From positions 1 through 34,097 of IMG/VR virus record IMGVR_UViG_3300008110_009594: a stretch of 34,097 nt of DNA; one strand, 5' to 3'. The notes beneath the pieces were generated by a model that did not search any database, had not been told where the DNA came from, and saw only the letters and a list, made by a program, of their open reading frames with translations. This document shows positions 9,379-34,097 of the stretch, piece after piece; the first letter of the stretch is position 1; each line of letters begins with the position of its first letter. The stretch is from a virus. The position numbers were made by a program, and so were the translations under genes.

Positions 9379-10029
9379 TTAGAGTATGAAATATGGGGAC
9401 TTAGTTTTAAATGTATATTCTTTTACAATACTAGAGTTATTATTAATTCGGTAAATAGACCCTTCATCTAGCATTTGACTGTTATTAAACATAGTAGAGC
9501 AAAAATCTCCATTCTCTACATTAGCATATAGAGTGCAAGAATTACGAGCTATATACGTGTTTTTTGTACGTATATTATAAGCCCAAATAGCTAGTGTACC
9601 TTCAAGCTTACTCAGACCTTGCAAACCAAACATATCAAGTACGCGCGGTATAATACAGCTATCTGTACGCCCTTCGAAATTTTCTTTCGAGAAATATTCT
9701 TTACCTAGTTGCACAAAATTACTAATAATACCGTTATGAGCTACAATCCAATCTCCAAAGAAAAAAGGATGGTTATTAAGTTCGTTAAATTCTTTAGTTT
9801 CGGTAGTAGGTCCACGAGAATGATATAGGTAGTATAGTCCCTCAGTATGTATACCAGGCACACAAGCAGGTTCTGCAAGATCTCTAAACTTACCTTGAGT
9901 TTTTTCACATACCCACATACCTAGATCGTCGAGCACTATAGAACCTGAACTGTAATAGCCTCTATCAAGATTGCTCTGATAAAGTAAATACGCTCGGTCT
10001 TTATTATTAGAACCAGCTATACCACACAT
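9379..10029 (-). CDS. Stand-alone class II glutamine amidotransferase paired with QueC
   Basis: The protein begins MCGIAG, so removal of Met would expose the N-terminal nucleophile Cys2 of Ntn-type glutaminases. Further class II marks are SRGPTTET, the glutamine-binding HNGIISNF and FEGRTDSC. At 216 residues it is only the glutaminase domain; no PurF, GlmS or AsnB synthase domain follows. Its start is one base past the queC stop, so the two are probably co-translated. In known phage and archaeal systems a GAT-QueC fusion, or a GATase working with QueC, turns preQ0-type precursors into amidated 7-deazaguanines. I infer that this enzyme hydrolyses glutamine and passes ammonia to the QueC product. 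The order here is QueC then GAT, and the two are separate. Confidence 0.85.
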   Translation of the reverse strand: MCGIAGSNNKDRAYLLYQSNLDRGYYSSGSIVLDDLGMWVCEKTQGKFRDLAEPACVPGIHTEGLYYLYHSRGPTTETKEFNELNNHPFFFGDWIVAHNGIISNFVQLGKEYFSKENFEGRTDSCIIPRVLDMFGLQGLSKLEGTLAIWAYNIRTKNTYIARNSCTLYANVENGDFCSTMFNNSQMLDEGSIYRINNNSSIVKEYTFKTKSPYFIL

Positions 10030-10030
10030 A

Positions 10031-10750
10031 TTATAAATAGGTTAATTCTCTGCAGTTGTACTTAGACCATGGTATATCTTTTTTATAAGCAATGGGGTCG
10101 ACAGCCTCATTATCAATAAAACCTTTAATTCGAGCAGCGCACGATACGCATTCCCCGCATGCGGGGTCAGTCCCTTCATAACAAGTATGGGTTTGACGGA
10201 AGTCTACCTGCAAATTAATACCGGTTCTAATTACTTCTTCTTTGGAGAAAGACATAAACGGAGCCTTGACTTGAATATTATTTTTACGGTTCAGATTATA
10301 AACGTCGTTAACTTTATTCAGGAAAAGAGAAGTACAGTCCCAATAACCGCTGAAATCATCAGTTTGTACTGCTCCATAATACAGGTGTTCTGCTCCAATA
10401 CTTTCAGCCCAACCAGCTGCAGTGGTTAAAAGCAAGAGATTGCGAAATGGTACGTAACTTAAAGGCTGAGCATTACCGATATCTTCTCTAGCCTTAGGAA
10501 TTTTAAGATCTGTATTAGTTAAAGCAGACATCTTTGAAATGTCTCTAAAGAAATCCATATTAACAATTTTATGTTCGGTCACGCAGCAGTCCTTTGCTTG
10601 AAACTTGGCACACTCTATTTCTCGAGCAATCCGCTGACCATAATTAAAAGTAATAGCGTATACCTCTTTATAGTCAAGTACATGTGCAACATGATGGAGC
10701 AGCACGGTACTATCCATGCCACCGGAAAGAATAACTAGAGCTTTTGACAT
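10031..10750 (-). CDS. queC: 7-cyano-7-deazaguanine (preQ0) synthase
   Basis: The 239-residue protein has the PP-loop SGGMDS at 9-14, the YVPFRN motif in the middle, and the zinc site formed by Cys190, Cys198, Cys201 and Cys204 (CxxCxxC preceded by an upstream Cys). Length and layout match bacterial QueC. It converts 7-carboxy-7-deazaguanine to preQ0 using ATP and ammonia. With queD and queE at 15391-16646 and DpdA at the right edge, it most likely feeds DNA-base modification rather than tRNA queuosine. It is the first gene of the leftward block, opposite a divergent gene at 10810. Confidence 0.95.
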   Translation of the reverse strand: MSKALVILSGGMDSTVLLHHVAHVLDYKEVYAITFNYGQRIAREIECAKFQAKDCCVTEHKIVNMDFFRDISKMSALTNTDLKIPKAREDIGNAQPLSYVPFRNLLLLTTAAGWAESIGAEHLYYGAVQTDDFSGYWDCTSLFLNKVNDVYNLNRKNNIQVKAPFMSFSKEEVIRTGINLQVDFRQTHTCYEGTDPACGECVSCAARIKGFIDNEAVDPIAYKKDIPWSKYNCRELTYL

Positions 10751-10809
10751 ATGCTTATAATAGTGAAAAATAATAGAAATTCAATGTAAAACAGTAAATA
10801 TTGTATATT
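10751..10809. promoter_or_regulatory. Divergent intergenic region upstream of queC and the CTS-type gene
   Basis: This 59-bp AT-rich gap separates two outward-facing genes, so it must hold promoters in both directions unless both are read through. On the plus strand AGTAAATA at 10793-10800 (6 of 8 matches to TATAAATA) lies nine bases before the ATG at 10810. Toward queC, an AT-rich ACTATTATAAGC segment precedes the ATG. No exact consensus is seen. Confidence 0.4.
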
Positions 10810-13120: not shown

Positions 13121-13135
13121 GACTAAGTAAAGTAT

Positions 13136-14264: not shown

Positions 14265-14281
14265 AAGAGATAATGTAATAC

Positions 14282-15010
14282 TTATCTTTTTTTAGGCAAG
14301 TTTTTTGGGGGTAATTTTTCGTCTAATCCTAGTCCTTTTGCAATCATTGCTTTTTCAATAATGTCCGCAGAGATCAACGAATCCTGTTCTCCAAAAAACT
14401 CGCATTTGTTATTAATATACATAGAGATCATCTGTATACGTTCGATGGGATTTCCTACGATAGGAATAATAGGGGGGGTATCGCTGTTATTAAATAGTTG
14501 CGTATTACGCGCCTCCCAAGCTCTATAAAAAGTATCAAACAACACATCAATCTCCGCTCTATATAATGGATCTATATCTCTCTGCTCTTTAGTGAGTAAT
14601 GGTATATTATTTTTTTCTACTAATGGCAAGTAAAATAAAATAGAATATTCCGATATTGCATCTCTAGATTTAGCTATAGACTGATCAATAAAATCTTGAT
14701 CGATATCAGACAGTCCTTTATCAAACAACCAGAGCGAATAAGCAATATTATCTAAAGGTGTGCGGTCGAATACCATTTTTTTCTTACCGTAATTCTTTTT
14801 AGCTTCATTTACCAAAAAATCTAAAATAAGCCCCTGAGACTCTTTAGTCCCGTTCTTATTAATAGGTAAGTTTTTTTCTCTGACTAAATCTCTATATGTT
14901 TTTTCCGGTCGAGATAGTTGCGGCCACTGAAGCAGCATATCTTCAATAAGTGTACTTTTGCCTATACACTGCGTACCTATAATACCTATTTTATTAAGTT
15001 TAACACTCAT
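14282..15010 (-). CDS. P-loop NTPase/kinase, NadR-like AAA_28 type
   Basis: The 242-residue protein has Walker A GTQCIGKST at 12-20 and a FDRTPLDNIAYSLWLF segment resembling the Walker B/lid region of NadR-like and deoxynucleoside-kinase-like ATPases. The substrate is unknown. Such enzymes phosphorylate nucleosides, ribosyl-nicotinamide or similar small molecules. Its start overlaps the upstream 75-residue gene by ATGA, tying it to the queD-queE operon. A role in NAD salvage, dNTP supply or modified-base metabolism would all fit, and none is proven. Confidence 0.75.
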   Translation of the reverse strand: MSVKLNKIGIIGTQCIGKSTLIEDMLLQWPQLSRPEKTYRDLVREKNLPINKNGTKESQGLILDFLVNEAKKNYGKKKMVFDRTPLDNIAYSLWLFDKGLSDIDQDFIDQSIAKSRDAISEYSILFYLPLVEKNNIPLLTKEQRDIDPLYRAEIDVLFDTFYRAWEARNTQLFNNSDTPPIIPIVGNPIERIQMISMYINNKCEFFGEQDSLISADIIEKAMIAKGLGLDEKLPPKNLPKKR

Positions 15011-15389: not shown

Positions 15390-15390
15390 A

Positions 15391-16191
15391 TTAAACCTTT
15401 AATGCTTTGTCCCAGATTTGAAGGTGCATACGGTTACTGAACTTAAAACCGTACTTCTTACAGATTTCCGCAACAACAGGACCTACTTCAAGTAACTCCT
15501 TACGGGAACCGCACATAGGCATAATCCAGACAAGTTCACTCTTCAGAGCTACGTCTGGATTATTAATGTACTTTTCAAGTACTTCGTCAAGGTCAGATTC
15601 TTGCTTTGCAACAAACTTAAAGCAAGCGTGGTGTTTAGCAAGAAAGCGCAATACATCTGGCTTGAAGCGCTTCTCTTCAGGGTCTCCGTTCGAAGATAGT
15701 TTAGGAGAAGTTGTAAACGATACGCTGCACCCGATATCAAACCACTCCTTATCAGGCATAATAGTACCGTTGGTTTCAAAATCGATTTTTAAAACAGAGG
15801 CCTCTGGCAAAGGTACCATAAGGTCATGACTAGACATATCATAAAAGCCCCAGCGATCTCTAATAAACTTTACAAACTCAATAAGATTCTTTTGCTGAAT
15901 AAAAGGCTCTCCGCCAGTAAGCTTAAGAATAGCTCCTTGCTTAAGCTTTTCGTGGTAGTCGTTCTTTTCGAACAACTGAGCAATCTCTTCAAATGTCATC
16001 CTGTTCTTCTTAGACCAGCTTACATAACTATCGCAACCAAAAGGAGCGTCTTCACTCTTAAAACCTATACAGGTGAGATTGCACATTGACAGTCTCATAA
16101 AGACTGAAGGCCAACCGATAAAGCGGCCTTCCCCCTCAAGAGTATAAAAGACGAAGTCGTCTGAAAGAAATAAAGTTTTATCAGCACTCAT
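15391..16191 (-). CDS. queE: 7-carboxy-7-deazaguanine synthase (radical SAM)
   Basis: The 266-residue protein carries the QueE start pattern FYTLEGEGRFIGWPSVFMRL, then the cluster cysteines Cys37, Cys41 and Cys53, and LTGGEP near residue 91. It rearranges 6-carboxy-tetrahydropterin to 7-carboxy-7-deazaguanine. The cysteines read Cx3C-x11-C rather than the canonical Cx3Cx2C, with a loop between the second and third, as some QueE subfamilies have. It overlaps queD by ATGA (16188-16191), so the two are translated together. Confidence 0.93.
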   Translation of the reverse strand: MSADKTLFLSDDFVFYTLEGEGRFIGWPSVFMRLSMCNLTCIGFKSEDAPFGCDSYVSWSKKNRMTFEEIAQLFEKNDYHEKLKQGAILKLTGGEPFIQQKNLIEFVKFIRDRWGFYDMSSHDLMVPLPEASVLKIDFETNGTIMPDKEWFDIGCSVSFTTSPKLSSNGDPEEKRFKPDVLRFLAKHHACFKFVAKQESDLDEVLEKYINNPDVALKSELVWIMPMCGSRKELLEVGPVVAEICKKYGFKFSNRMHLQIWDKALKV

Positions 16192-16646
16192 GACATATTA
16201 TTAGTATACTTTTGATAAATTGCACTATTTTGTTCGTGCTCCCACACCTCTACTTTTTCACACCAGCATCTATTTTGAGTAATAGCTTTTACATGTCCAT
16301 CGGCTGTTTCGCAGCAAAGCTCGGCGAACCGCTCAATACCTACCCCGTTAGGGAGTTCTACGAGCTCGATCATACCACGTTTTTCCATATCTCTAAACAC
16401 TTCAATATCTGGATCTTTTTTCCAGACTACAGTCTTATGATCGAAAGTGTTTTCAAGTGCTCTCTTCAGCTCTTTAAGACCCCCGAAGTCGACTACCCAG
16501 TTATTTTTATCTAGCTCGTTACAGGTAAACCAGAATTTAGCCTGTAAACGGTAGCCGTGAATAAATTTGCAATGACTGGTTGCGTAAGGCTGACGAAATG
16601 CGCATGAACCAAGCGGTATAACTTTAGTAGAATAGAATTTACCCAT
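16188..16646 (-). CDS. queD: 6-carboxy-tetrahydropterin synthase family protein
   Basis: The 152-residue protein matches the QueD/PTPS fold: SHCKFIHGYRLQAKFWF near residues 24-40, VVDFGGLKELK, and FDH at the position of the catalytic Asp-His. It would turn dihydroneopterin triphosphate into 6-carboxytetrahydropterin, the QueE substrate. The usual CxxxHGH zinc motif reads CKFIHGY here (Cys26, His30, Tyr32), and the first zinc His is not in its usual place, so metal binding must use another arrangement such as His25. I recall this variant from other phages and bacteria. It is the first gene of a leftward operon. Confidence 0.85.
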   Translation of the reverse strand: MGKFYSTKVIPLGSCAFRQPYATSHCKFIHGYRLQAKFWFTCNELDKNNWVVDFGGLKELKRALENTFDHKTVVWKKDPDIEVFRDMEKRGMIELVELPNGVGIERFAELCCETADGHVKAITQNRCWCEKVEVWEHEQNSAIYQKYTNNMS

Positions 16647-16670
16647 ACTGTATGGTATAAACTTTTTTAA

Positions 16671-17024: not shown

Positions 17025-17029
17025 TTAAT

Positions 17030-17037
17030 TATTTATA
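17030..17037 (-). promoter_or_regulatory. T4 late-promoter-like TATAAATA
   Basis: Exact minus-strand TATAAATA ends five bases before the GTG start at 17024. With the normal T4 late spacing, transcription would start on the G of the start codon, giving a leaderless message. Confidence 0.5.
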
Positions 17038-17040
17038 TAA

Positions 17041-17048: not shown

Positions 17049-17054
17049 TTATTT

Positions 17055-19380: not shown

Positions 19381-19387
19381 TTCAGCC

Positions 19388-21952: not shown

Positions 21953-23000
21953 ACTAAAAAATTCAGAAGTAGGTATATTTTCAGATCCACACTACGGAGT
22001 ACACCGCAATTCCGAGGTATGGCATAAAATCGCTTTAGACCACGCTAAGTGGACTGCTCAGCAATTCAAAGAGCGCGGTATTCAAGATATTATTATACCA
22101 GGAGATATTTTTCATGATCGCAACGACATTGCTGTTAACACTCTTCATGTTGCTACTGACATATTCGATATATTCAGCAACTTCAATATCATTATTACAG
22201 TCGGTAATCACGATGCTTATTATCGTGACAATTCTAGCGTTAATTCCGTCTCCATTCTTAGAGGCTGGACTAATATTACTGTTATTGACTCTCTTCAAGT
22301 TGTTGAACTTCACGGAGCGAAAATAGCTTTTTGTCCGTGGGGCCAGAATATTGAAGAGGTACCTGAATGTGATCTTATAGTTGGCCACTTTGAAATTAAT
22401 AGCTTTAAAATGAATTCGTACAAGGTATGTACGAATGGACTTAAAGCGTCAGATTTAGTCAATAGAGCGAAGCTTACTATTACTGGTCATTTTCATCATA
22501 GAGATGAACGCAAATATAATGATGGTACAATATTGTATGTAGGTAGTCCCTATCAACAAGACTGGGGTGATTTTGGCACTACTAAAGGTCTGTATATTTT
22601 AGATTTAACTAATTTAAAATACGAATTTATTGAAAATAATATTTCACCTCGGTATATGAGATTGCGTTATACCGAACTTACAAACGGTACCTACACTTCT
22701 GACACTCTTAAAGCTGCTCTGACTAATAATATTGTTAAATTCATAGTGGATCAAACTGTTGAACCTGTTAAGTTAGATACAATAATACGCAAATTGGTAA
22801 CAATTAAACCTACTGAGTTTACAATTGAGCACGATGTTACAGAGCAGAGCAAACTCAATATAGAAGAAGCAGCTAATAAAGAATTTAATATTAGTATAGA
22901 AAAATCTATAGAAGAATTTATCGACCTAATGGACGTTAAGGAAAAAAATAAAGTAAAGCTCTATATTTCAGACTTATACACCCGCGCATCTAAATTATGA
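21942..23000 (+). CDS. SbcD/Mre11-like recombination nuclease subunit (gp47)
   Basis: Metallophosphoesterase motifs appear in order: FSDPHYG, GDIFHDR, VGNHD, GHFE and GHFHHRD. About 352 residues from ATG 21942; ATG 21915 has AGGAG only three bases upstream and is an alternative. gp47 is the nuclease partner of gp46 and prepares ends for recombination and degrades host DNA. It is usually adjacent to gp46, but here six glycosyltransferase genes separate them. The ATGA overlap with the first of these shows translational coupling. Confidence 0.9.
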   Translation: MQIKLKNSEVGIFSDPHYGVHRNSEVWHKIALDHAKWTAQQFKERGIQDIIIPGDIFHDRNDIAVNTLHVATDIFDIFSNFNIIITVGNHDAYYRDNSSVNSVSILRGWTNITVIDSLQVVELHGAKIAFCPWGQNIEEVPECDLIVGHFEINSFKMNSYKVCTNGLKASDLVNRAKLTITGHFHHRDERKYNDGTILYVGSPYQQDWGDFGTTKGLYILDLTNLKYEFIENNISPRYMRLRYTELTNGTYTSDTLKAALTNNIVKFIVDQTVEPVKLDTIIRKLVTIKPTEFTIEHDVTEQSKLNIEEAANKEFNISIEKSIEEFIDLMDVKEKNKVKLYISDLYTRASKL

Positions 23001-23974
23001 AAATATGTATACACTCTAATCAATTTGATGGAAGAGGTACAGGTAAAACTCCGTATGATTACGGATTAGCCTTAAGAGATATTTTAGGCCATGATGTATG
23101 TTATATGACTTCCATGCAGAGTAAAAACGAGGGATTACACCGTATAGCTAAGGAGTTTCCGGTTTACATGTACCCCGGGAAAGCAGATGTTAGTCCATCA
23201 TCTGAGGTTAAAACTCAAATTGAGCAATTAGTAGATCAACATAAAATTGATTTTATACAAATGCTTAAATACGGTACTAACGATAAAGTAACACCCACTA
23301 ACTGTAAGACAGGAATACACTATGTTTTTAATGGAGCTGAGCCACACGGAGATGTCTACGCAGCTGTATCAGAAAATTTAGCTAAAAAATTTAATAAAAC
23401 AGATTACGTACCGCATATAATACGCAAATTAGAACCTACTAAAGACATACGAGCAGCTTTAAATATACCCAAAGATGCTTTAGTAGTAGGTCGTCATGGT
23501 GGATACGAAACCTTCGATTTACCGTTTGTGTGGGAAGCCGTGGCTGAAACAGTTAATAAACGTAAAGATATTTATTTCTTATTTCTTGCAACTAAGCCGT
23601 TTATGCAACACGAAAGAGTGTTGCATTTTGACTGGGTCCCTGATGAACGTGGTATATATAATTTTATACATGCTTGCGACATTATGCTGCATGCACGTCA
23701 TATGGGAGAAACGTTCGGGCTATCAGTAGGAGAGTTTGCAGCTTGTAATAAACCGGTTATGACCTGGCACGGACTAGGCCATGGATTTTATGATACTGCA
23801 CATATTGATCAACTTAAAGGTAAAGCTATACAATATAGACTTGGCCACGAAATAGTCGATTACCTTACTAATATTAAGCCAGCTGATTTTTCAGGTACTA
23901 ATTGGGACACGTTCACAGAGACATTTAGCGATTATAATGTAATTAAACGTTACGAAAACGTATTTTTAAAATGA
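22997..23974 (+). CDS. Glycosyltransferase, GT-B fold (GT4-like)
   Basis: The 325-residue protein has a C-terminal nucleotide-sugar half with VVGRHGGYETFDLPFVWEAV, IYFLFLATKPF, WVPDERGIYNFIHACDIMLHAR and GETFGLSVGEFAACNKPVMT. This matches GT-B enzymes with an E-x7-E type motif (GETFGLSVGEF). The N-terminal half begins KICIHSNQFDGRGTGK, a donor/acceptor loop. The acceptor is unknown. First gene of the cassette inserted after gp47, coupled by ATGA at both ends. Confidence 0.82.
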   Translation: MKICIHSNQFDGRGTGKTPYDYGLALRDILGHDVCYMTSMQSKNEGLHRIAKEFPVYMYPGKADVSPSSEVKTQIEQLVDQHKIDFIQMLKYGTNDKVTPTNCKTGIHYVFNGAEPHGDVYAAVSENLAKKFNKTDYVPHIIRKLEPTKDIRAALNIPKDALVVGRHGGYETFDLPFVWEAVAETVNKRKDIYFLFLATKPFMQHERVLHFDWVPDERGIYNFIHACDIMLHARHMGETFGLSVGEFAACNKPVMTWHGLGHGFYDTAHIDQLKGKAIQYRLGHEIVDYLTNIKPADFSGTNWDTFTETFSDYNVIKRYENVFLK

Positions 23975-24801
23975 AAATTGGGGTAGGCATAATTACTTGC
24001 AATAGACCAGAGTATCTATTGAATCTTTTAAAAACTATACCTATTGATCGGATATCTCATCTTGTTGTAGTTAATGATGGGGACGAAAAGAATAAGCACG
24101 ATCTAAGATATCCAGGTGTGTGGGTACAAAATGAAAAGAATTTAGGAGTGGGTAAATCTAAAAATAAAGCTATGAAGCATCTTTATGATAAGGGATGCGA
24201 CTATATTTTTATTATTGAGGATGATATGCTTATTAAAGACGAAAACGTATTTTACAGGTATATTGAAGCATATTCTCAAACTGGTATACATCATTTTAAT
24301 TACGGTCCAGGCTCACCATTTAACCGTAAACAAAAAATACAGTTTGATCTACATAACAGACATCTTTTAGACCAAAAAAGTCCTGTTAATCCTAAACTTA
24401 TAGTCGAATACCCTAATAATGTTAAAATTGCACTGTATGAACACACTGTAGCGATGTTTTCATTTTTTACTCGTACTGTACTGGAAAGAGTAGGCTATAT
24501 AGATGAACAATTTTATAATGCATGGGAACACGTCGATCATACATATCGTATTGCTTTGGCCGGTTATCATCCTCCGTTCTGGTGGTTTGCTGATATAGCT
24601 GATAGTGAAAAGTATTTAGAAGAAGCTCCTGGTGCAATTGACAACTCTTCTATTGCTAATAAGACTGAGCAATGGCAAAAAAATGTGTATGGTGGTAGAG
24701 AGCTTTATAAAACAAAGCACGGTCACTACCCAAATGAACCTAAGTCGTATAACTTAAATCAGGTTATCGACATATTAAAGAAAATAGAAAAACGCAAATG
24801 A
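23971..24801 (+). CDS. Glycosyltransferase family 2 (GT-A)
   Basis: The 276-residue protein starts VGIITCNRPEYLLNLL and contains VVVNDGDE, NLGVGKSKNKAM, and IFIIEDDMLI, whose EDD at 83-85 is the metal/nucleotide-sugar site. The later YIDEQFYNAWEHVDHTYRI matches the acceptor-side ED/H motif of GT2 enzymes. Second gene of the cassette, overlapping the genes on both sides by four bases. Confidence 0.88.
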   Translation: MKIGVGIITCNRPEYLLNLLKTIPIDRISHLVVVNDGDEKNKHDLRYPGVWVQNEKNLGVGKSKNKAMKHLYDKGCDYIFIIEDDMLIKDENVFYRYIEAYSQTGIHHFNYGPGSPFNRKQKIQFDLHNRHLLDQKSPVNPKLIVEYPNNVKIALYEHTVAMFSFFTRTVLERVGYIDEQFYNAWEHVDHTYRIALAGYHPPFWWFADIADSEKYLEEAPGAIDNSSIANKTEQWQKNVYGGRELYKTKHGHYPNEPKSYNLNQVIDILKKIEKRK

Positions 24802-25550
24802 ACGAAATAGTCACATACGGACAAAATTATTCCCTCAATGACGGGATTAAAAAGTTTATTGATTCTGCTGTTAAAACCGGCGCCAGCGTTGTTGTATTGA
24901 CGAACAATGTTAAGCAAGACGTAAAAGACTACATACTACAATATAAGAACGCCCGCTGTGTAAGTGCAGAAAAGATTGCTAAGACTTATAATGTAGACTT
25001 AAACCTTTCCCCCTACACTCTTAAAGTTATCTTTTTTTATCTTTACACTAAGCACCTATCTCATGCAGATAATGTATTTTTATGTGATTTTACCGACGTA
25101 TATTTTAATAGAACAGTATTTGATAGAGAGTATACTAAACCGGTAGTGTTTGGGGAAAACGTATTAATTGAAGCTTGCCCGACTAATACTACCTGGATTA
25201 ATGTATGCTACAATCAAGATATTTTTAATCTATTAAAAAATTACGAAATTATTAATGGAGGAGCTATACTTGGACCTAAAGATAAATGTGCCGATTTGCT
25301 TAAAGAAATGTGTGCTGATATATCGGTAATACTTGGCCGTACTGGTAATTACCCGAATATTGACCAAGCTATTCTTAACAAGGTTGTGCGGTTTGATTAT
25401 TATCGTTATGAAGTAGGTTCTAAAAATATTGTGCTTAATTTAGCTCAATATAAAGAGCTTAGAAAGTGGAGCAAAGAAAACGTTCCAGCTGTTTTTCACC
25501 AATATGACGGACACCTCGATGTAGAAAGGTTTATAAATGAGCAAAGTTGA
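24798..25550 (+). CDS. Putative glycosyltransferase (GT-A-like, DxxD type)
   Basis: The 250-residue protein contains VFLCDFTDVYF (Asp97 and Asp100 as a probable divalent-metal site), NGGAILGPKD, NIDQAILNKV and a late VFHQYDGH. This order (DxxDV, NGG, DQ..LN, H-x-DGH) resembles nucleotide-sugar transferases of GT8/GT77-like groups. The family is not certain. Third cassette gene; 14-bp overlap with the next. Confidence 0.68.
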   Translation: MNEIVTYGQNYSLNDGIKKFIDSAVKTGASVVVLTNNVKQDVKDYILQYKNARCVSAEKIAKTYNVDLNLSPYTLKVIFFYLYTKHLSHADNVFLCDFTDVYFNRTVFDREYTKPVVFGENVLIEACPTNTTWINVCYNQDIFNLLKNYEIINGGAILGPKDKCADLLKEMCADISVILGRTGNYPNIDQAILNKVVRFDYYRYEVGSKNIVLNLAQYKELRKWSKENVPAVFHQYDGHLDVERFINEQS

Positions 25551-26277
25551 TGTAATTATTTTATCTTTAGCAAATGATGAGACAAGCTTTCATACCACTA
25601 AACGCTGTGTAGATTCTTATCTTGATACCGCTAATGAACTTATTAGACAAATTTTTGTAATTGAGTCTTACAAGGATTTTAACAAAAATTATGGTAATGA
25701 CAAAGTACAGGTAATTATTCCACCGTATGAATTTAATTACAATCAGTTTTATAACATTGGTTTAAGTCATTGTACCGCCCCCTATGTTATGGGTCCTAAT
25801 AACGATTTAATTATACAGGAAAACTGTGTACAAAATATTGTTAAAGAATTTGAGTCTAATCCAGATATAAGTTCTATTAGCCCCGTAGACAGAGAATGGC
25901 ATCGCCACACTAAGCTCTATTTACCTAATGATAGTAAGCTTTATTATGGATGGGAAGTATCTTTGCATATGTTCGGTTGCGTATTTTGTGCGAGAAGAAG
26001 CGTATTTGAAAAGATAGGCTATCTAGATGAACAGTTTTATTTCTTTTATCAAGACAATGATTATGTTTACTCTTTAAGAGCTAATAACTTACTACACGGG
26101 GTGTTAACAAGTGCGCGAGTTAAACATAAGTCAGGCGCTACTTCTCCTAAAGGGCCTACCCGCTGCAAGTATACTCCGCATAATATGAACACTCAAGGAG
26201 ATATACTAGGTCGTAAGTGGAATAGTGAGCCTTTTAAGTCAGGTGGTTATATACCTTATAAAAAATACGTAATGTAA
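25537..26277 (+). CDS. Glycosyltransferase family 2 (GT-A)
   Basis: The 246-residue protein starts VDVIILSLANDETSFHTTKR and contains YNQFYNIGLSHC, MGPNNDLII (NND at 88-90 as metal site) and GYLDEQFYFFYQDNDYVYSL, the ED-type catalytic segment of rhamnosyl/galactofuranosyl-like GT2 enzymes. It shares the YLDEQFY/YIDEQFY block with the enzyme at 23971, suggesting an old duplication. Fourth cassette gene; its TAA stop shares a base with the next ATG. Confidence 0.85.
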   Translation: MSKVDVIILSLANDETSFHTTKRCVDSYLDTANELIRQIFVIESYKDFNKNYGNDKVQVIIPPYEFNYNQFYNIGLSHCTAPYVMGPNNDLIIQENCVQNIVKEFESNPDISSISPVDREWHRHTKLYLPNDSKLYYGWEVSLHMFGCVFCARRSVFEKIGYLDEQFYFFYQDNDYVYSLRANNLLHGVLTSARVKHKSGATSPKGPTRCKYTPHNMNTQGDILGRKWNSEPFKSGGYIPYKKYVM

Positions 26278-27167
26278 TGAATATTTCATTTTTATACGCA
26301 AGATTACCTAAAGATGTTTGGAATACATCTATAGCTTTGCAGAGAGAATTTGAAGCAGCTGGTCATAAAACTAGATGCTATTCTTCAATGAATTTGCAAG
26401 AACAGTATACTGAAGACGGTTTAAAAGAACTCTTGCAAGAAGCTAGACGCGGTGATTTTATACCAAATGTTATCATTAATTTTGATTACGGAATGTTTAA
26501 AAGCCCGCTTTTAAACAAACATCAGTTTCCGTATGCTAAATGGGTACTCGAATCCGGAGACGATCCGCAAAGCTTTGGTTACAACTTTCAAAAAGCTTTT
26601 GCAGGCAATTTTGACGCTATTCTATCTCCCGATATAAGATGCTGTGAAGATTATAATCGTAGAGGCTTTAAATGTTATTGGTTCCCTCACTTTGCTGATA
26701 CTGCTATGTACCCTAAAGAGGTATACGACATACAGCCCGACCTAGATGCAGTTTGTACCCGTAGCAAGACTGATAAATTCTTTCAACAAGTAAGAGAAAG
26801 ACTGGGTAACAGATTTGACACCACCAGCGGGTTGCACGCATTAGAGCATTCTGCGTATTTACGTAGAGGTAAAATCGTGCTGCAGAATAGTCAATACAAA
26901 GAAATTACCCGTCGCTTGTTTGAAGGTATGTTAGCTAATAGAATGGTTATTGCTGATAGACCAGACAAAGGTACCTGTATTGAACAAATATTTACTGAGG
27001 GTAAAGAAATTGTTTATTTTGATACCTTAGACGATCTTATAGACAAAGTAAATTACTATACTAATAACGAGCAGGAGAGGCTAAAAATTGCGCAAGCAGG
27101 CTTTGACAAAGTGTCAAAACTACACACTGCTGCAGCTAGGGTTAAATCATTATTAATGATACTATGA
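26277..27167 (+). CDS. Glycosyltransferase, GT-B fold (CgeB-like)
   Basis: The 296-residue protein has an N-terminal half ending FDYGMFKSPL and a C-terminal segment GKIVLQNSQYKEITRRLFEGMLANRMVI followed by GKEIVYFDTLDDLIDKVNYY. This is the donor-binding layout of CgeB/Glyco_trans_1_2 proteins (R-x-FE-x-LA-x-G/R). The acceptor is unknown. Fifth cassette gene, coupled by ATGA to the next. Confidence 0.78.
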   Translation: MNISFLYARLPKDVWNTSIALQREFEAAGHKTRCYSSMNLQEQYTEDGLKELLQEARRGDFIPNVIINFDYGMFKSPLLNKHQFPYAKWVLESGDDPQSFGYNFQKAFAGNFDAILSPDIRCCEDYNRRGFKCYWFPHFADTAMYPKEVYDIQPDLDAVCTRSKTDKFFQQVRERLGNRFDTTSGLHALEHSAYLRRGKIVLQNSQYKEITRRLFEGMLANRMVIADRPDKGTCIEQIFTEGKEIVYFDTLDDLIDKVNYYTNNEQERLKIAQAGFDKVSKLHTAAARVKSLLMIL

Positions 27168-28024
27168 AAATTTTATTTTTAACTAAAGGGGATCACGTAG
27201 ACTATCAAAACGATTGCCTGTTGATTGGTCTTAGAGAATTAATCGGAGCAGACGTTGTAGACTATAATAAACAACTTCATAATTACGATACTTATTCTCC
27301 AGAAGCGGCATTAAAATTATACGGTAAAGGTATGACCGTTACTCGAGTACTACCTGATATAGCAATTGATCGTACCGATATAACATCAAAAATTAAAAAC
27401 AAATATTATGATTATATTGTGTATGGTCATATATGGAGATTTAACGGGTACTTAAAAGAAATACTAAGCATATACCCAAAAAATAAAGTAATCGCAATAG
27501 ATGGGGAAGATGAAGTAAACATACACCCTTCTTACGGTAATTTACTGTATTTTAAAAGAGAAATTGATGGCAATAGATACCCTGATTTGTTTCCTATTGC
27601 TTTTGCAATGCCTACGTCAAAAATTAACTTTAATGCTAAAAAGACTCAAGACCTTGCGTATATTACTCCTTTAGACCGTAGTACATACATATATAATAAT
27701 GAAAAAGACTATTATGCAGATTACGGTCGTTCAAGATTTGGTGTTACCACTAAAAAAGCTGGCTGGGATTGTATGAGACATTATGAAATACTCGGTAACG
27801 GCTGCATACCATATTTTCCAGATATCGACCGGTGCCCGACTAATACAATGTCCTGGTTTCCAAAACGTATATGTGTTAACGTACTTGACAGTATTATAGA
27901 TAAACGACCGCTTGAAAAAATATACGAAGATTATGCGGAATTATTTCGTAATTACACATTGAACCAGCTTACAACAATTAAACTAGCAGAAAAGTTTATA
28001 AATTTCGTTAATTCTGCAAAGTAG
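27164..28024 (+). CDS. Putative GT-B/exostosin-like glycosyltransferase
   Basis: The 286-residue protein contains SRFGVTTKKAGWDCMRHYEI followed by GCIPYFPDIDRCP and TMSWFPK, a segment I associate with exostosin-like or capsule/LPS-type transferases. The N-terminal half has a Rossmann-like start (KILFLTKGDHVDY) and VYGHIW. Less certain than the other cassette genes. It is the sixth and last before a 31-bp gap and gp46. Confidence 0.6.
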   Translation: MKILFLTKGDHVDYQNDCLLIGLRELIGADVVDYNKQLHNYDTYSPEAALKLYGKGMTVTRVLPDIAIDRTDITSKIKNKYYDYIVYGHIWRFNGYLKEILSIYPKNKVIAIDGEDEVNIHPSYGNLLYFKREIDGNRYPDLFPIAFAMPTSKINFNAKKTQDLAYITPLDRSTYIYNNEKDYYADYGRSRFGVTTKKAGWDCMRHYEILGNGCIPYFPDIDRCPTNTMSWFPKRICVNVLDSIIDKRPLEKIYEDYAELFRNYTLNQLTTIKLAEKFINFVNSAK

Positions 28025-28055
28025 AATAATTTGCAAAAGCGACTACTATAGAGCA

Positions 28056-29879
28056 ATGCAGTATGTTCACTTTAAGACGGTTCGGATAGTTAATTTTCTC
28101 TCTGTTGGCAAAAAGCCGGTTGTAATTAATTTTAAACCGGGGCTTAATATCATTACAGGTAAGAATTATGATAAGAGTGATCGGGCTAATGGAGTTGGCA
28201 AGTCTACAGTAGCAGATGCAGTGTACTTCGCACTTTACGGGTCAACTATAAGAGAACTTAAGAAGGAGAACATTGTTAATAACCTCTTTCCTGACGACGT
28301 CTGCGAAGTAGAGCTTGAATTCTTTGTTGAAGAAAACAACACTAAGACTGAGTATAAAATTGTACGCACTCTTAATCCTACTAAATGTTTTCTCTTCGTG
28401 GACGGAGAAGATAAGACCCGTTCAGGAGTACCTCAAACTACCGAATTTATTACAGATATTATTAACACCTCGCCTGAAGTCTTTCAGAATAGTGTTATAA
28501 TGACTATTAACAATACTGTGCCGTTTATGGCGCAAAAGAAAATAGAAAAGCGTAAATTTATCGAAGGTATACTCGGTTTAGAAGTGTTTAGTAACATGCT
28601 TTCTATAGCGCGTTTTGATTTTAACGAAACAAAGCGTAATTTTGATATTGAAACAAGTAAGTGTGATGAAATAGAAAGATCTTTAGCTGAAATTTTAAAG
28701 CAAAGAGAATCTGTTGAAGAAAACCGCAAAAAACGTAAAGATGTACTACTCACTCGTCAGAATAATAACGAAAACGAACTTGGCTTACTTAATGAAAAAA
28801 TATCTAAGTTTGAACCGGTAGATGAAGCTGCTAAGAAAAAAATAGAAGAAGATATTAAAGCTTTAACTGAAGCAGATAAAGCATTAACTGTAAAAATTGA
28901 TAAAATTAATAAAACCCTTACAGAAGCCAATACGTATGTAAAGATTAATAATGACCGTCTCAAAAAACTAAAAAAGGTAGATAGTAAATGCCCTCATTGC
29001 GGTAAAGATCTTGCCGAGGCAGCAAATACTCAATACGAAAAAGATAAAACCGAGTGTCAGAACGAAATCGCGAAATACACTTCCGTAGTTGACGAAAACA
29101 CTCCTTCTTTAAAAGACGTAAAAGACAAAATTACTAAAGTCGAGGACGCTCTTAGTAAAATGCAGCGTAAATTTAATGACTTTGCTATACGCAAGAAAGA
29201 ATATGAAAATATATCCTCTCGAGTTAAGCAATTACAAGTATGGCAAGATCAACTCAAAGTAGATCTGGAACAACTGAACGTAGAAGACAATTCTTTTAAC
29301 AACAATATCAAAGATATACAAAACCGTATCGATACTAGTAAGCTCGCGATAGTTGAACTACAAACTAAAATTGATATTATTGAAACAGCAAAGTTTATAA
29401 CTTCAGAAGAAGGTGTAAAGTCGTTTATAGTCAAAAAAATTCTAGAAGTACTTAACATACGGCTTGCGTACTATCTTAAAAAGCTTGAAAGTAATAGTAT
29501 TGTTACTTTCAACGAGTTTTTTGAAGAAAGAATTACTAACGAGCGCGGGGTTGAATGCAGTTATTTTAACTTCTCCGGGGCAGAGCGTAAATCTATAGAC
29601 CTTGCAATGTTGTTTACGTTTCAAGATATCCGCCGTGCTCAAGCTAATGTGTGGTTGAGTGTTTCTATGTTCGATGAACTGCTAGATTCATCTTTAGATG
29701 AGAAGGGCATTGAAATGGTATTAGATATTCTTAGAGAAAGAGTTGAAAAGTACCAGGAGGCAGTGTATGTAATATCGCACCGTAAAGAAAGTATGAAATA
29801 CTGTACAAATGGCGAAATAGTCTTCCTCGAAAAGAAAAACGGTATTACTACCCGGTCAAACGATTTTACAAATGAATAA
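28056..29879 (+). CDS. SbcC/Rad50-like recombination ATPase (gp46)
   Basis: The 607-residue protein has an SMC-type ATPase head split by coiled coil. Walker A is ANGVGKST at 44-51, preceded by an inserted loop. Long heptad regions follow, with a zinc hook CPHC at 312-315, then the signature FSGAERKSIDLAML, Walker B MFDELLDSSLDE and the VISHR H-loop. gp46 partners gp47 in end processing. It overlaps the following gene by eight bases. Confidence 0.92.
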   Translation: MQYVHFKTVRIVNFLSVGKKPVVINFKPGLNIITGKNYDKSDRANGVGKSTVADAVYFALYGSTIRELKKENIVNNLFPDDVCEVELEFFVEENNTKTEYKIVRTLNPTKCFLFVDGEDKTRSGVPQTTEFITDIINTSPEVFQNSVIMTINNTVPFMAQKKIEKRKFIEGILGLEVFSNMLSIARFDFNETKRNFDIETSKCDEIERSLAEILKQRESVEENRKKRKDVLLTRQNNNENELGLLNEKISKFEPVDEAAKKKIEEDIKALTEADKALTVKIDKINKTLTEANTYVKINNDRLKKLKKVDSKCPHCGKDLAEAANTQYEKDKTECQNEIAKYTSVVDENTPSLKDVKDKITKVEDALSKMQRKFNDFAIRKKEYENISSRVKQLQVWQDQLKVDLEQLNVEDNSFNNNIKDIQNRIDTSKLAIVELQTKIDIIETAKFITSEEGVKSFIVKKILEVLNIRLAYYLKKLESNSIVTFNEFFEERITNERGVECSYFNFSGAERKSIDLAMLFTFQDIRRAQANVWLSVSMFDELLDSSLDEKGIEMVLDILRERVEKYQEAVYVISHRKESMKYCTNGEIVFLEKKNGITTRSNDFTNE

Positions 29880-31041
29880 TTTTATATATGGAGCACCAGC
29901 GTTACCAGTAGGAGCGCCTGCGTTTGGAACCCCAGTGAGCTTACCCGCTCAGCAGCCTGCACAACATATGCCGCCAGGTGCAGCTAATCAAGCTATTAGT
30001 TTTGCTGCAGACCATGGCGGTTGTGGTTTTTGGCGTATACATTGGCCGGAATCTATTATCAACTCTTCAGGAGCTGGTATAGTTACTAACTCAACAATGA
30101 TGTTACTGGATTCCCGGTATTATCAAAACGTAAAATCTGTAAAAATACAGCGCCAAGTAACACCACCGCAACTTGAATTTACTAAGTTCTTACGGGATGT
30201 TTCTAATAAAACCAATAAGTTTAAAATATATTATGAGATTGACGACGTTATCTTTCCCGAAGATATACCGATTTATAATAAATCTCGAGAAGCATTTGTA
30301 GATCCTGTTGTTGCAAAAACTGCTATAGAGATTATTAAACTTTGTGACTATATTACCTGCCCGACTAAGTTTATGGCAGATTATTACACAGAAAAAACTG
30401 GTGTACCTGCAATAGTATTGCCGAATTACATGCCTAAATTTTGGCTGGATCGTTTTTATAGCAAATCTAAGACTGTTGAAAATTTTGATAGAAACAAAAA
30501 ACGACCACGCGTGGGTTACGTAGGCAGCCCAACTCACCTAAACATTGCTAACGTACCCGGTGCTGTAGATGATATTGGACCGCATTTAGAGAATATACGC
30601 AAAACAGTTAAAGACTTTAAATGGGTGTTTATGGGTGGTTACCCGCATGCTTTACAGGATTTAGTACGGTCTGGAGATATTGAATATGTGCCTTGGAAGA
30701 GCTTGTACGAATATAGCTATGCTTACGATGCATTAAATCTTAACGTTGCTATAGCTCCATTACAAAACAACAAGTTTAATTTGTCAAAAGCACCGATTAA
30801 ATACCTTGAAGCTGGTGCATTAGGTATACCTTGCGTGTGCCAAGACTACGCACCGTATAACACTGATCCTATTGCACCTCTTAGATTCAACACATCTAAC
30901 GAGATGATGGATATTATTAAAAAACTTACAAGTAATCGTCAGTACTATCTTACCGAATCGGATAAAGCACGTAAGACCGCATCTCAATATTGGTTGGAAG
31001 ATCACATTGAAGAGCATATTAAAGTTTACTTTCCTTCTTGA
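29872..31041 (+). CDS. Glycosyltransferase, GT-B fold, with Pro/Ala-rich N-terminus
   Basis: The 389-residue protein has a low-complexity start (residues 3-40, rich in Ala, Pro, Gly, Gln) before the conserved part begins at FAADHGGCGFWRIHWP. Then come YYEIDDVIFPED, a CPTKFMADYY segment, RVGYVGSPTH at the start of the second Rossmann half, WVFMGGYP, and APIKYLEAGALGIPCV, the donor-site motif of GT4-like enzymes. It follows gp46 and precedes DNA polymerase. The tail-like N-terminus is odd for a GT, and a later start is possible. Confidence 0.78.
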   Translation: MNNFIYGAPALPVGAPAFGTPVSLPAQQPAQHMPPGAANQAISFAADHGGCGFWRIHWPESIINSSGAGIVTNSTMMLLDSRYYQNVKSVKIQRQVTPPQLEFTKFLRDVSNKTNKFKIYYEIDDVIFPEDIPIYNKSREAFVDPVVAKTAIEIIKLCDYITCPTKFMADYYTEKTGVPAIVLPNYMPKFWLDRFYSKSKTVENFDRNKKRPRVGYVGSPTHLNIANVPGAVDDIGPHLENIRKTVKDFKWVFMGGYPHALQDLVRSGDIEYVPWKSLYEYSYAYDALNLNVAIAPLQNNKFNLSKAPIKYLEAGALGIPCVCQDYAPYNTDPIAPLRFNTSNEMMDIIKKLTSNRQYYLTESDKARKTASQYWLEDHIEEHIKVYFPS

Positions 31042-31071
31042 TTAGTTCGTAATAAGATACACAATTATTGT

Positions 31072-33633
31072 GTGTACCGTAACATTTATTATAGTTCGAG
31101 AGAGGGTCTAGCGTACCTTTTTACTTGGGATGAAAACGGCGATCGGGTTGTAACTAAGACCCCTTATCGTCCGTATTTCTACGTAGAAACCAACTTAGAC
31201 GCTTTTGATGCAGTTTCTATTTATAATACTAAGCTTAAGAAGAAGGAATTTAAGAATGGGTATGAACGTAATCAAGCTGCTCAAGACGGCGCAATAAAAA
31301 GGCTCTATCATAATATACAGGTTGAGCAGCAGTTTCTTATCGAAAAGTACAAGGATCTTTACGACAAGCCTGAATTTTCTAAAGACCCGGTTAAAGTTTG
31401 TTTTCTAGACATTGAGGTGCACAGCCCAGATGAATTCCCAGAAGCAAAGGACGCAAAGCACCCTATTAATCTTATTACGATTTACGATAATCTGTCTAAG
31501 ACCTTTTACACCTGGGGCGCTAAGGCATATAAGCCTAAAAAAACTAATGTAGTTTATACTGAGTGTGAAAGCGAAATAGACTTACTAGATAAATTTTTAG
31601 ACTTCTGGGAAAATGGTTATTACCCGGATATCCTGTCTGGGTGGAACACGGACTTTTTCGACTTTCCTTATCTTATTAACCGCATTACTAAACTACGTGG
31701 AGAGAGCGCAGCAAAACGTCTTTCACCTCTTAAGAGTCTTTGGTGTCGCAAAGGAATCTTCGTAAAGGGTCAAGAACTAGACCGCTGGTATATTCACGGT
31801 ATATCAGCAATGGATTACCTTGAAGTTTATAAAGGTTTCGCTCGTGGACTACTTGAGTCTTATGCGCTTAACTTCGTTGCACAGCACGAATTAGGTGAAG
31901 GTAAGCTAGCAATTAACGCTACTAACCTAGCAACTCTATCTGAGACTGACTGGGATAATTTCGTAGACTATAACATTCAGGACGTTGATCTGTTAGTGCG
32001 AATGGAGAACAAATTACAGTTCTTTAAGATTATTCGTATGCTTGCGTATAAAGGGCTTACGAGCTTTGAAGCAGCCCTAGGTAAAGTATCTATTGTTACT
32101 GGTTGTGTTGCATTGGAGGCTTACAAGCACGGTCTGGTTATACCGACCTTTGTTGAAGGGCCTACAAGAGAAGCTATTGAAGGTGGATATGTAAGAGACC
32201 CAGAAAGAGGCTTAAAGACGTCTATTGTAAGCTACGATGCTAATTCTCTATACCCTAATACCATTATCACACTTAATATCTCTCCTGAAACAAAGGTAGG
32301 TAAGATAAAACAAAAGGATGAAGATAACACCGTATTACTATTGACCAGTGGTAAAGAATACAAATTACCTAATGACAAGTTTGAAAAATTCTTAGAGGTA
32401 GAAAAGATAGCTATATCCAAAGCAGGCGTACTGTACACTCAAAAGAAGAAGGGGGTTGTACCTTCTCTGATTGACGGTCTTTATAGCGAACGGGTGAAAA
32501 ATAAAAATCAGTATGTTGAGCTCAAGAAAAAGCTAAGTAAGATAGAAGCAGATACGGATGACTACAAAACGTGTAAGTTCAATATGGAGCGGGCCGACAC
32601 CATCCAACACGTCATCAAGATTCTACTCAATTCTATTTACGGTGTTTTTGCTAATAAGTTTAGTCCTATTTGTGATAGTGATCACGCCGGTAGCATTACT
32701 CTCACTGGTCAGTCTGTGGTCAAGCAAGCGTCGGTCATCTTAGACACCTATGCAAAAGAAAGGCATGGTATTGATACATCCTTGACTATATATGGAGATA
32801 CTGACAGTACCCATGTAACTATACAACCTATTGTTAACAAGCTTAAGTTAAAGTTGTTTGAAAATAATAAAGTTACTCAGGAAGGGTTGGATCTTATCGA
32901 TAAAGAAATCGGTACGTATCTTAATGCTGAGATCAAGAAGTGGTCTGCTTCCGAATTTCGCTCTATTGATCCTCGTTATTTCTTTAAAAGAGAATCTATT
33001 TGCGATGTAGGAGTGTATCTACAAAAGAAGCGTTATATCATACACGTCTTAAATGATGAAGGTGCAGACGTTAATAAGTTTAAGTACGTAGGAGTTGAAA
33101 TTGCGCGTTCGACTACACCTAAAAAAGCTAAAGAATTAATTAAACAGGTAATTGAGACTTCTTTGATCGGACAAGATCAAAATAAAGCTAATAAACTTTA
33201 CAAGGAGGTTTATGATAAGTTTAAAAGTCTCTCAGTAGATGATATCGCAATACGCGGGGGTCTGAGCGACCTCGAAAAGTACGAGAGTAAAGCTAACGGC
33301 TTTAAAATCGCTACTGGTACACCTAATCACGTAAAAGGCGCAATCTGGTACAATCAATTACTCAAGCATCTAAAGTTAGAAACCAAATACGAACGCATTA
33401 CTTCTGGCGGTAAAGTTAAGAAGATTTATATTGCTCCTAACAAATATAATATTGATACTCTTTGCTACCCGGTGAGTTTTCCTCCTGAATTTAAACATTT
33501 TGAAGTAGATTATGTCGAAATGTTCGATACAATTATTAAACCGCCTGTACTTGCTGTTTATGAAGCAGTAGGGTGGAGACTGCCTGATGTTAATAACGAA
33601 ACCGAAGTAGACCTATTTGAATTTTTCTCATGA
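31072..33633 (+). CDS. Family B DNA polymerase (gp43-like)
   Basis: The 853-residue protein starts at GTG 31072. Exonuclease motifs are complete: DIE at 113-115, WNTDFFD at 191-197 and YNIQD at 300-304. Polymerase motifs are also complete: YDANSLYP at 388-395 (motif A), KILLNSIYG at 516-524 (motif B), YGDTDST at 574-580 (motif C) and KKRY at 652-655. It is the replicative polymerase with proofreading. It is close to T4 gp43 (898 residues) in length, and its stop overlaps the dpdA ATG (ATGA). Confidence 0.95.
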   Translation: MYRNIYYSSREGLAYLFTWDENGDRVVTKTPYRPYFYVETNLDAFDAVSIYNTKLKKKEFKNGYERNQAAQDGAIKRLYHNIQVEQQFLIEKYKDLYDKPEFSKDPVKVCFLDIEVHSPDEFPEAKDAKHPINLITIYDNLSKTFYTWGAKAYKPKKTNVVYTECESEIDLLDKFLDFWENGYYPDILSGWNTDFFDFPYLINRITKLRGESAAKRLSPLKSLWCRKGIFVKGQELDRWYIHGISAMDYLEVYKGFARGLLESYALNFVAQHELGEGKLAINATNLATLSETDWDNFVDYNIQDVDLLVRMENKLQFFKIIRMLAYKGLTSFEAALGKVSIVTGCVALEAYKHGLVIPTFVEGPTREAIEGGYVRDPERGLKTSIVSYDANSLYPNTIITLNISPETKVGKIKQKDEDNTVLLLTSGKEYKLPNDKFEKFLEVEKIAISKAGVLYTQKKKGVVPSLIDGLYSERVKNKNQYVELKKKLSKIEADTDDYKTCKFNMERADTIQHVIKILLNSIYGVFANKFSPICDSDHAGSITLTGQSVVKQASVILDTYAKERHGIDTSLTIYGDTDSTHVTIQPIVNKLKLKLFENNKVTQEGLDLIDKEIGTYLNAEIKKWSASEFRSIDPRYFFKRESICDVGVYLQKKRYIIHVLNDEGADVNKFKYVGVEIARSTTPKKAKELIKQVIETSLIGQDQNKANKLYKEVYDKFKSLSVDDIAIRGGLSDLEKYESKANGFKIATGTPNHVKGAIWYNQLLKHLKLETKYERITSGGKVKKIYIAPNKYNIDTLCYPVSFPPEFKHFEVDYVEMFDTIIKPPVLAVYEAVGWRLPDVNNETEVDLFEFFS

Positions 33634-34097
33634 TTAAAATTTCTCACGAATCCCCTCTTAGTATGCTCGATATTTCTCGTACATACAATGATTATGACTA
33701 CGCTTTAGTACATCTCTTTGAAAAGCACCCTAGCTACTATCAGTTCTTCGAAGACAGTCTCCGTCAAGGTCGTACAGTGCTTCTTGATAATTCTATTTTC
33801 GAGCTTGGTACAGCTTTTGATAGTCATAAATACATGGACTGGATTAATAAGCTTAACCCGTCTGAATATATTATTCCAGATGCTCTGGAAGATTGCGATG
33901 CAACTATTGCTAAAGCAAAATCTTGGATGGACTATAATGCTTACCATATCACCGCTCAATCCAAGAGAATCGGTGTAGTACAAGGTACAAATTATGGTGA
34001 ACTAGTAAAGTGTTACACGGTTTTAGATAAACTAGGCGTAGATAAGATTGCTATTTCTTTTGATTACTCTCACTACCTAAGGGAGTTTCCGTATAAT
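33630..34097 (+). CDS. DpdA-like 7-deazaguanine DNA transglycosylase (partial, 3' end outside window)
   Basis: 156 codons are open from ATG 33630 to the right edge. TGT-like elements are visible: TVLLDNSIFELG at 49-60 (aligning with the TGT D-S-G-G-F catalytic strand, Asp53), YIIPDALED at 80-88, and IGVVQGTNYGELVKCY at 114-129 (TGT has IVQGG followed by an Arg/Leu helix). DpdA swaps guanine in DNA for preQ0 or a derivative. The remaining catalytic Asp and zinc ligands would lie beyond the edge. It is coupled to the polymerase gene by ATGA, and its pathway partners queC, queD, queE and the amidotransferase are in the window. Subfamily cannot be assigned. Confidence 0.8.
   Translation, partial: MIKISHESPLSMLDISRTYNDYDYALVHLFEKHPSYYQFFEDSLRQGRTVLLDNSIFELGTAFDSHKYMDWINKLNPSEYIIPDALEDCDATIAKAKSWMDYNAYHITAQSKRIGVVQGTNYGELVKCYTVLDKLGVDKIAISFDYSHYLREFPYN

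Follow-up and report, generated by a model that had tools for sequence, protein, structure and literature searches.

A stand-alone glutaminase encoded beside a variant QueC in a phage pathway that probably places a preQ1-type 7-deazaguanine in DNA

The IMG/VR virus record IMGVR_UViG_3300008110_009594, 34,097 bases long and read here from its letters (the window), carries genes of a 7-deazaguanine DNA-modification pathway, a known type of base exchange that helps phages withstand enzymes of the host, including one for a separate class II glutamine amidotransferase (GAT) directly beside queC. Sequence comparison and structure models make it probable that this phage replaces guanines of its DNA with a 7-deazaguanine of the preQ1 type, that GAT feeds QueC, and that a formyltransferase acts on the base. 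In the proposed route, FolE, encoded past the window, would act with QueD and QueE to turn GTP into 7-carboxy-7-deazaguanine (CDG). GAT would free ammonia from glutamine and hand it to QueC, which would convert CDG through 7-amido-7-deazaguanine (ADG) to preQ0, and QueF, also encoded past the window, would reduce preQ0 to preQ1. DpdA, a protein of tRNA-guanine transglycosylase (TGT) fold, would swap guanine in DNA for the modified base, and the PurN-like formyltransferase encoded beside dpdA would formylate the aminomethyl group. All five pathway open reading frames (ORFs) reported in the first-pass annotation (queC, queE, queD, GAT, and a TGT-like dpdA) are present at their positions in a check of ORFs and translations, and family matches confirm them. 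Sequences and models show the gene identities, the folds of DpdA and GAT, the coupling of queC to GAT, a formyltransferase gene in the window's own population, and QueF within the gene block of relatives; the partnership of GAT with QueC, the final base, and the extent of replacement are inferred.

A glutaminase gene adjoins queC

GAT (positions 9379 to 10029, minus strand) matches Pfam GATase_6 above its cut-off (E 8.5e-11). The structure model of the protein (predicted local distance difference test [pLDDT], 91.1) is nearest to the glutaminase domain of GlmS (1xff; Z 21.5, root mean square deviation [rmsd] 2.8, 197 residues aligned) and aligns to asparagine synthetase B (AsnB) with Z 18.1. 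Cysteine occupies residue 2 in all 40 GAT sequences compared, that of the window included. GAT is thus a predicted class II glutamine amidotransferase, with an N-terminal Cys nucleophile and a modeled N-terminal nucleophile (Ntn) fold. It consists of the glutaminase domain alone, without an acceptor domain of its own. A 1-nt gap separates it from queC (10031 to 10750, minus strand), and the two are distinct ORFs with a stop between them, not one fused chain.

This arrangement recurs. In 47 of 49 queC-GAT pairs, the two genes share a strand and the gap from queC to GAT is -26 to +32 nt; the loose pairs are those of L018 (1,408 nt) and L089 (725 nt). Many of these loci are near copies, and at 90% GAT identity they reduce to 33 pairs, 31 of them tight. 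The 49 pairs comprise 24 found via DpdA, 15 loci and 5 phage records found via GAT itself (a biased sample), 4 excised from DpdA contigs already known to contain GAT and QueC, and the window. Among the 80 DpdA loci described below, queC occurs in 25, and all 24 with a whole queC also hold GAT (the other, L078, is cut inside queC). When 20 IMG/VR contigs were searched whole, QueC was found in 13 and GAT in the same 13, 9 of which had been chosen by DpdA rather than by GAT.

The pair is spread over the window lineage, other uncultured phages, Vibrio phages, and Pseudomonas phage pf16. A tblastn search with a GAT from lineage B (the second of two sets of DpdA loci; see below) matched 51 phage records, 49 from Vibrio and 2 from Pseudomonas (40 listed; RefSeq and GenBank copies counted apart). 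By eye, the QueC and GAT matches adjoin on one strand in the 25 records listed for both. Where such a GAT row carried an annotation, it read "hypothetical protein" or "nucleophile aminohydrolase." A scan of genome contigs for a bacterial GAT, made with one pattern only, gave 46 pattern matches and no relative. In Achromobacter phage Motura, an asparagine-synthetase-B-like gene directly follows queC and may be a parallel to the GAT-QueC pair.

The architecture of AsnB combines a class II glutaminase with a PP-loop synthetase. Given this precedent and the tight coupling of the two genes, we propose that ammonia would pass from GAT to QueC. GAT occurs together with QueF in phages 6E35.1a, pf16, 1.081.O, and 2.275.O, and it occurs in Vibrio phage nt-1 with no QueF match within the 15-kb stretch examined; its presence both with and without QueF would suit an action at the QueC step rather than at a later one.

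QueC paired with GAT carries an altered YPDC motif

The window QueC is well supported as a family member (Pfam QueC PF06508, E 7.6e-62; TIGR00364, 177.6 bits against a cut-off of 150.3). Canonical QueC is assigned to cluster 1 in PMC13329287, which places YPDC at the pocket mouth of Escherichia coli QueC and reports Tyr131 as essential. In the window protein this motif reads YWDC, so that the Tyr shown to be essential in E. coli is kept and the Pro is replaced. Its SGGMDS fits SGGxDS, and its zinc cysteines are spaced C(x)7CxxCxxC, one residue short of C(x)8. It departs from YxQxHxxE: YGQRIAREIE has the Tyr, the Gln, and a Glu but no His, a residue also missing from an Acinetobacter QueC row that has YPDC. 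Because YPDC is not kept, we class the protein by its sequence as a QueC variant.

The replacement follows the pairing. Trp or His stood in place of the Pro of YPDC in 48 of 48 paired QueCs (YHDT in 23, YWDC in 20, YWDT in 4, HWDG in 1), compared with 0 of 16 unpaired QueCs, in which the residue is Pro in 15 and Asp in one, and 0 of 2 fused Gat-QueC proteins, both of which have YPDN. The cut L014 was dropped from this count. The 16 unpaired sequences are a hand-picked spread that includes L111, probably bacterial DNA, and "unpaired" means that no GAT match was found in the fetched stretch, which is the whole record only for Flavobacterium phage immuto and Campylobacter phage CP220. In a QueC tree, with the Motura asparagine-synthetase-like protein (not a QueC) serving solely as a far outgroup, 24 paired QueCs formed one clade (support 95/96, with long branches nearby). 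The QueC domain of phage 9g fell outside this clade, on a long branch. Separately, zinc cysteines are missing in the immuto QueC (L002, 2563 to 3444) and seemingly also in those of MMDA13 and RHph_Y55 (L117 and L122).

The right-edge ORF encodes a DpdA

The ORF at 33630 to 34097 (plus strand) gives the first 156 residues of DpdA, the DNA guanine transglycosylase, and is open at the contig end. It has no Pfam or NCBIfam match, but it belongs to PHROG_19058 (unknown function; E 2.7e-38), and its best tblastn match is the annotated DpdA of immuto (48.7% identity over 99%). It is also ~51% identical, over 90% of the query, to a CP220-type protein annotated as hypothetical. Its family would be subfamily DpdA3, reportedly tied to complete replacement of G.

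A PDB sequence search returned only weak matches to designed proteins, so a fold search was needed. The full-length protein of the related locus L020, which has 90% identity to the window fragment across the 156 residues they share, was modeled with AlphaFold from an alignment of 32 natural sequences (pLDDT, 88.3; predicted TM score [pTM], 0.87). Foldseek ranked TGT first (E 2.5e-9), and VIA-align matched the model to TGT (Z 17.7, rmsd 3.3, 235 residues aligned) and to the solved DNA preQ0 insertase DpdA 7ui4 (Z 17.4). The L020 protein is thus predicted to have the TGT fold, in agreement with the initial assignment of a DpdA-dependent 7-deazaguanine pathway.

D53 and D211 (L020 numbering) are invariant in all 32 DpdA sequences and, read from motifs and not from a superposition, are candidates for the TGT catalytic Asp pair. 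The bacterial TGT zinc site is CxCxxC...H; its CxCxxC part is absent from the DpdA rows examined and from the invariant columns of the 32-sequence alignment, and for this reason we do not class the window protein, as far as its sequence goes, as a tRNA TGT. The first-pass annotation had named the TGT catalytic Asp and zinc residues of the full-length protein as its test: the candidate Asp residues are kept, and the zinc cysteines are absent. That absence does not refute a DpdA, because the DpdA of phage 9g, which is reported active in PMC6884629, shows no visible zinc motif either. In another contig from the window population, L019, dpdA (10001 to 10774) is short of 12 residues close to its C terminus in comparison with the other lineage-A rows shown, which is either real or an assembly effect.

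dpdA heads a block with a formyltransferase and QueF

Relatives of the DpdA fragment are encoded in 154 IMG/VR stretches, the best 80 of which were fetched and compared. We sorted these into 38 loci of the window's lineage (A) and 42 others (B), the latter including a third group centered on L087. One locus, L019, matches window positions 23630 to 34097 at 99.8% identity and hence comes from the same population. Past the window edge it encodes a complete DpdA (257 amino acids [aa]), an 80-aa ORF, and a 198-aa formyltransferase with PF00551, and it stops just inside a kinase gene. In L020 (85% nucleotide identity), the formyltransferase is followed by a P-loop kinase and QueF. Among loci with room, the formyltransferase came after dpdA in all 25 of lineage A and in 30 of 32 of lineage B (in the exceptions, L088 and L089, matches begin just inside the end of dpdA), and QueF came after the kinase in all 25 and all 28, respectively. 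A thymidylate-kinase-like P-loop protein (L020, 5400 to 5960; L003, 8813 to 9355) lies between formyltransferase and QueF in all 57 DpdA loci that hold both. A similar gene adjoins the dpdA of CP220. The 80-aa ORF between dpdA and the formyltransferase (L020, 4575 to 4817; L019, 10758 to 11000) gave 26 tblastn matches among the collected loci. In lineage B the pathway genes form one cluster; their placement in three separate loci, noted at first pass, is correct for the window.

The QueF relatives, aligned to 3bp1, carry the patterns of the bacterial reductase in 51 of 53 sequences of at least 290 aa (58 collected; L087 and L090 miss). For the L020 protein, the NCBIfam QueF score of 218 bits is below the cut-off of 293, and Pfam QueF_N and QueF are both above theirs. 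The PurN-type pattern N-x-H...D-x-G is present in 62 of 62 formyltransferases of at least 170 aa (69 collected), and the NCBIfam PurN match is below cut-off. Because of the QueF patterns and the PurN pattern of a formyltransferase encoded beside dpdA, the DNA base is probably of the preQ1 type, formed as preQ1 and then probably formylated, and not amidated.

The Vibrio phage 6E35.1a encodes QueF, QueC, and GAT in a row. For phage 6E351A, which we read from the names as the same phage, PMC12028318 reports 15% of dG as modified, with the mass of dPreQ1 (the deoxynucleoside of preQ1). The evidence does not favor the amidated base (G+ or ADG) suggested in the first-pass annotation: L019 carries a formyltransferase after dpdA, QueF is present in 25 of 25 lineage-A loci with room, and the mass reported for 6E351A is that of dPreQ1. 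The base composition of the window gave no information on DNA modification.

QueD, QueE, and FolE

The identities of QueE and QueD lean on PHROG phage families more than on NCBIfam equivalog cut-offs. The QueE-like radical SAM enzyme (15391 to 16191, minus strand, overlapping queD by 4 nt) matches the PHROG QueE family phrog_2076 (E 4.8e-41), whereas its best NCBIfam QueE score is 49.3 bits against a cut-off of 260.1; on these matches we class it as QueE-like. The spacing between its second and third cluster cysteines varies: CX3CX11C in the window, an insert of ~40 residues in lineage B, a short one in immuto, and CX2 in 9g.

The QueD ORF (16188 to 16646, minus strand) matches PF01242 above cut-off (E 3.9e-17) and the PHROG QueD family phrog_2389 (E 2.1e-38), and its TIGR03367 score of 35.3 bits is below the cut-off of 89.25. 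The zinc ligands of QueD and related 6-pyruvoyltetrahydropterin synthases (PTPS) are canonically three His residues, including those of HGH; two of these three positions are substituted in the window, with F/Y at the first and HGY at the third, and we class the protein from its sequence as QueD-like only. A subfamily with Phe or Tyr for the first zinc His and HGY for HGH takes in 25 of 27 collected sequences (window, L002, and L004 to L095), immuto included; L010 is cut, L061 does not fit, the Motura QueD does, and that of nt-1 does not. All but L089 have an extra His before the catalytic Cys. The metal site of this subfamily is probably changed.

FolE was not recognized among the 17 window ORFs taken into the family scan, nor by tblastn of the window with the immuto FolE; no FolE model was run on the window. 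Since FolE lies 7.5 to 8.2 kb past queF in contigs G015, G001, and G002 (3 of 5 long enough: these, G003, and G007, with G017 and G018 left out of the search), the lack of FolE in the window may just reflect where the window ends. The first-pass remark that FolE is not seen therefore stands for the window, and three relatives hold the gene past the corresponding edge.

Other features of the window

A family B DNA polymerase gene (polB; 31072 to 33633, plus strand) lies directly 5' of dpdA, whose start overlaps the polB stop by 4 nt, an order common to many lineage-A loci. The protein matches NCBIfam family B models and a PHROG of phage DNA polymerases (phrog_262, E 2.5e-191), and of 2,585 records matching the polymerase, the 15 listed show identities of 29 to 32%. 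Other ORFs match PHROG head-closure and tail-sheath-stabilizer families, and because of these matches and that of the polymerase we read the window as a probable fragment of a T4-like phage.

Near queE-queD, a P-loop nucleotide-kinase-like protein (14282 to 15010, minus strand; AAA_28, E 2.2e-06; phrog_2107, E 1.8e-12) shares 25% identity with the kinase encoded in the dpdA operon. Read from translations, ORFs resembling glycosyltransferases occupy 22997 to 28024 and 29872 to 31041, between phosphoesterase-like and SMC/Rad50-like ORFs; the Rad50/SMC match is to NCBIfam, and the ORF at 29872 to 31041 has no NCBIfam match. The left-edge ORF (2 to 2917) closes with collagen-like G-x-x repeats of the kind seen in tail fibers.

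Weighing the interpretations

On balance, we favor the view that GAT pairs with the Trp/His-variant QueC to make a preQ0 synthase of two subunits that depends on glutamine. Such an enzyme would occur in several deep-branching groups of large phages, in company with DpdAs of more than one kind, would enable a large 7-deazaguanine supply without free ammonia, and would make PHROG_12378 ("unknown function") its glutaminase subunit. Several points weigh against this view and the route built on it. Canonical QueC works with free ammonia. The pair is the minority arrangement in the phage collection, where 342 records match QueC and 51 match GAT, and neither immuto nor CP220, both with QueC, has a GAT match in its whole record. 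Lineage-B GAT has Gln for the Arg of the GlmS-type HTR motif, and its glutaminase activity is for that reason not certain. As the 24 treed paired QueCs form one clade, the Trp/His signature may mark that clade only and reflect few events. QueF, FolE, and the formyltransferase all lie outside the window, with QueF taken from relatives of ~85% nucleotide identity or less, and FolE was not found in G003 and G007, though both extend far enough beyond queF. Phage nt-1, which has the pair, is reported with just 0.11% dPreQ0 and traces of two amidated nucleosides, 2'-deoxy-7-amido-7-deazaguanosine (dADG) and 2'-deoxyarchaeosine (dG+), in PMC6884629.

That trace of dG+, together with the dG+ attributed there to the fused Gat-QueC of 9g (PMC6884629), is what recommends a different and unlikely reading, in which GAT and QueC are the two pieces of an archaeosine synthase and the DNA carries dG+. 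The conserved partners are QueF and a formyltransferase instead, and for 6E35.1a, which also has the GAT-QueC pair, dPreQ1 is reported in PMC12028318. The fused enzymes have YPDN, compared with mostly YWDC or YHDT in paired QueCs, and the window GAT had no match at E 0.01 to PHROG 10428, taken from its name and length as the 9g-type family. A simple split of a 9g-type Gat-QueC is likewise disfavored, as QueC, GAT, and motif all differ; given the long tree branches, a very old split is possible.

About as unlikely is a GAT outside the pathway, serving some other amidation and lying beside queC by descent. QueC can use free ammonia, immuto and CP220 manage without GAT, and two pairs are 0.7 and 1.4 kb apart; however, the coupling is tight across several gene orders and phage groups, and GAT lacks an acceptor domain of its own. 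A halt at ADG, leaving dADG in the DNA as in Campylobacter firehammerviruses with a related DpdA, we consider a little less plausible again. The similarity of the DpdA fragment to the CP220-type protein (~51% over 90%) favors it, as does the statement in PMC8306585 that CP220 and CPt10 DNA contain dADG. Yet CP220 has no match to GAT, QueF, or formyltransferase, all of which occur in the window lineage (QueF and the formyltransferase past the window), and the substrate of QueF is preQ0. Finally, mere boosting of the queuosine precursor for host tRNA with unmodified phage DNA, put forward in PMC6884629 for phages without DpdA, is very improbable here, where DpdA is present with the annotated immuto DpdA as its best match and where dpdA, formyltransferase, and QueF form one block in related loci with room. 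Guanine recycling, in which a phosphoribosyltransferase and a kinase would reuse guanine freed by DpdA, was considered and set aside, since the immuto phosphoribosyltransferase occurs in only 3 other collected loci, weakly.

The pathway itself is known in kind, and its formyltransferase and QueF block is already annotated in immuto. For the separate GAT subunit and its tie to a QueC variant, we found no description in searches of partial, open-licence literature aimed at such a pair: the accessible portion of PMC13329287 discusses a separately encoded glutaminase for GMP synthetase only, and that of PMC6884629 the fused Gat-QueC form only. With the synthase we favor, a conserved gene that has so far lacked an explanation in 51 phage records (RefSeq and GenBank copies taken separately) acquires a function open to testing, and one may ask which nitrogen source QueC uses in vivo. 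The change of Pro to Trp or His in YPDC separates paired from unpaired phage QueCs in the tested set and could improve base prediction, here pointing to a preQ1 type over archaeosine.

Comparison with known systems

The closest known arrangement is that of immuto (vB_FspM_immuto), whose DpdA (49% identical) is followed in the same order by a formyltransferase, a thymidylate-kinase-like protein, and QueF, and in which FolE, QueD, QueE, and QueC are annotated. It differs in having no GAT match in the whole record, a QueC that keeps YPDC and is without the zinc cysteines, and a family A DNA polymerase. CP220 (Firehammervirus) shares a DpdA relative adjoining a thymidylate-kinase-like gene, with FolE and QueC elsewhere, but it has no match to GAT, QueF, or the formyltransferase, and its base is stated as dADG in PMC8306585.

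The Vibrio phages 6E35.1a and nt-1 share a stand-alone GAT, annotated as hypothetical and overlapping queC by 1 nt, and 6E35.1a also shares QueF. In contrast, the DpdA of nt-1 is assigned to subfamily DpdA2 in PMC6884629, and the formyltransferase matches in the phage collection are four immuto records only. The fused Gat-QueC proteins of 9g and archaea (archaeosine synthase) likewise combine a class II glutaminase domain with a QueC domain; they do so in one chain, with YPDN and dG+ as the product, and the 9g protein is a weak profile match only (E 5.5e-8). The glutaminase domain of GlmS and AsnB share the fold of GAT, and AsnB couples such a domain to a PP-loop synthetase. In the window, by comparison, the glutaminase is a separate protein, and its proposed partner is QueC.

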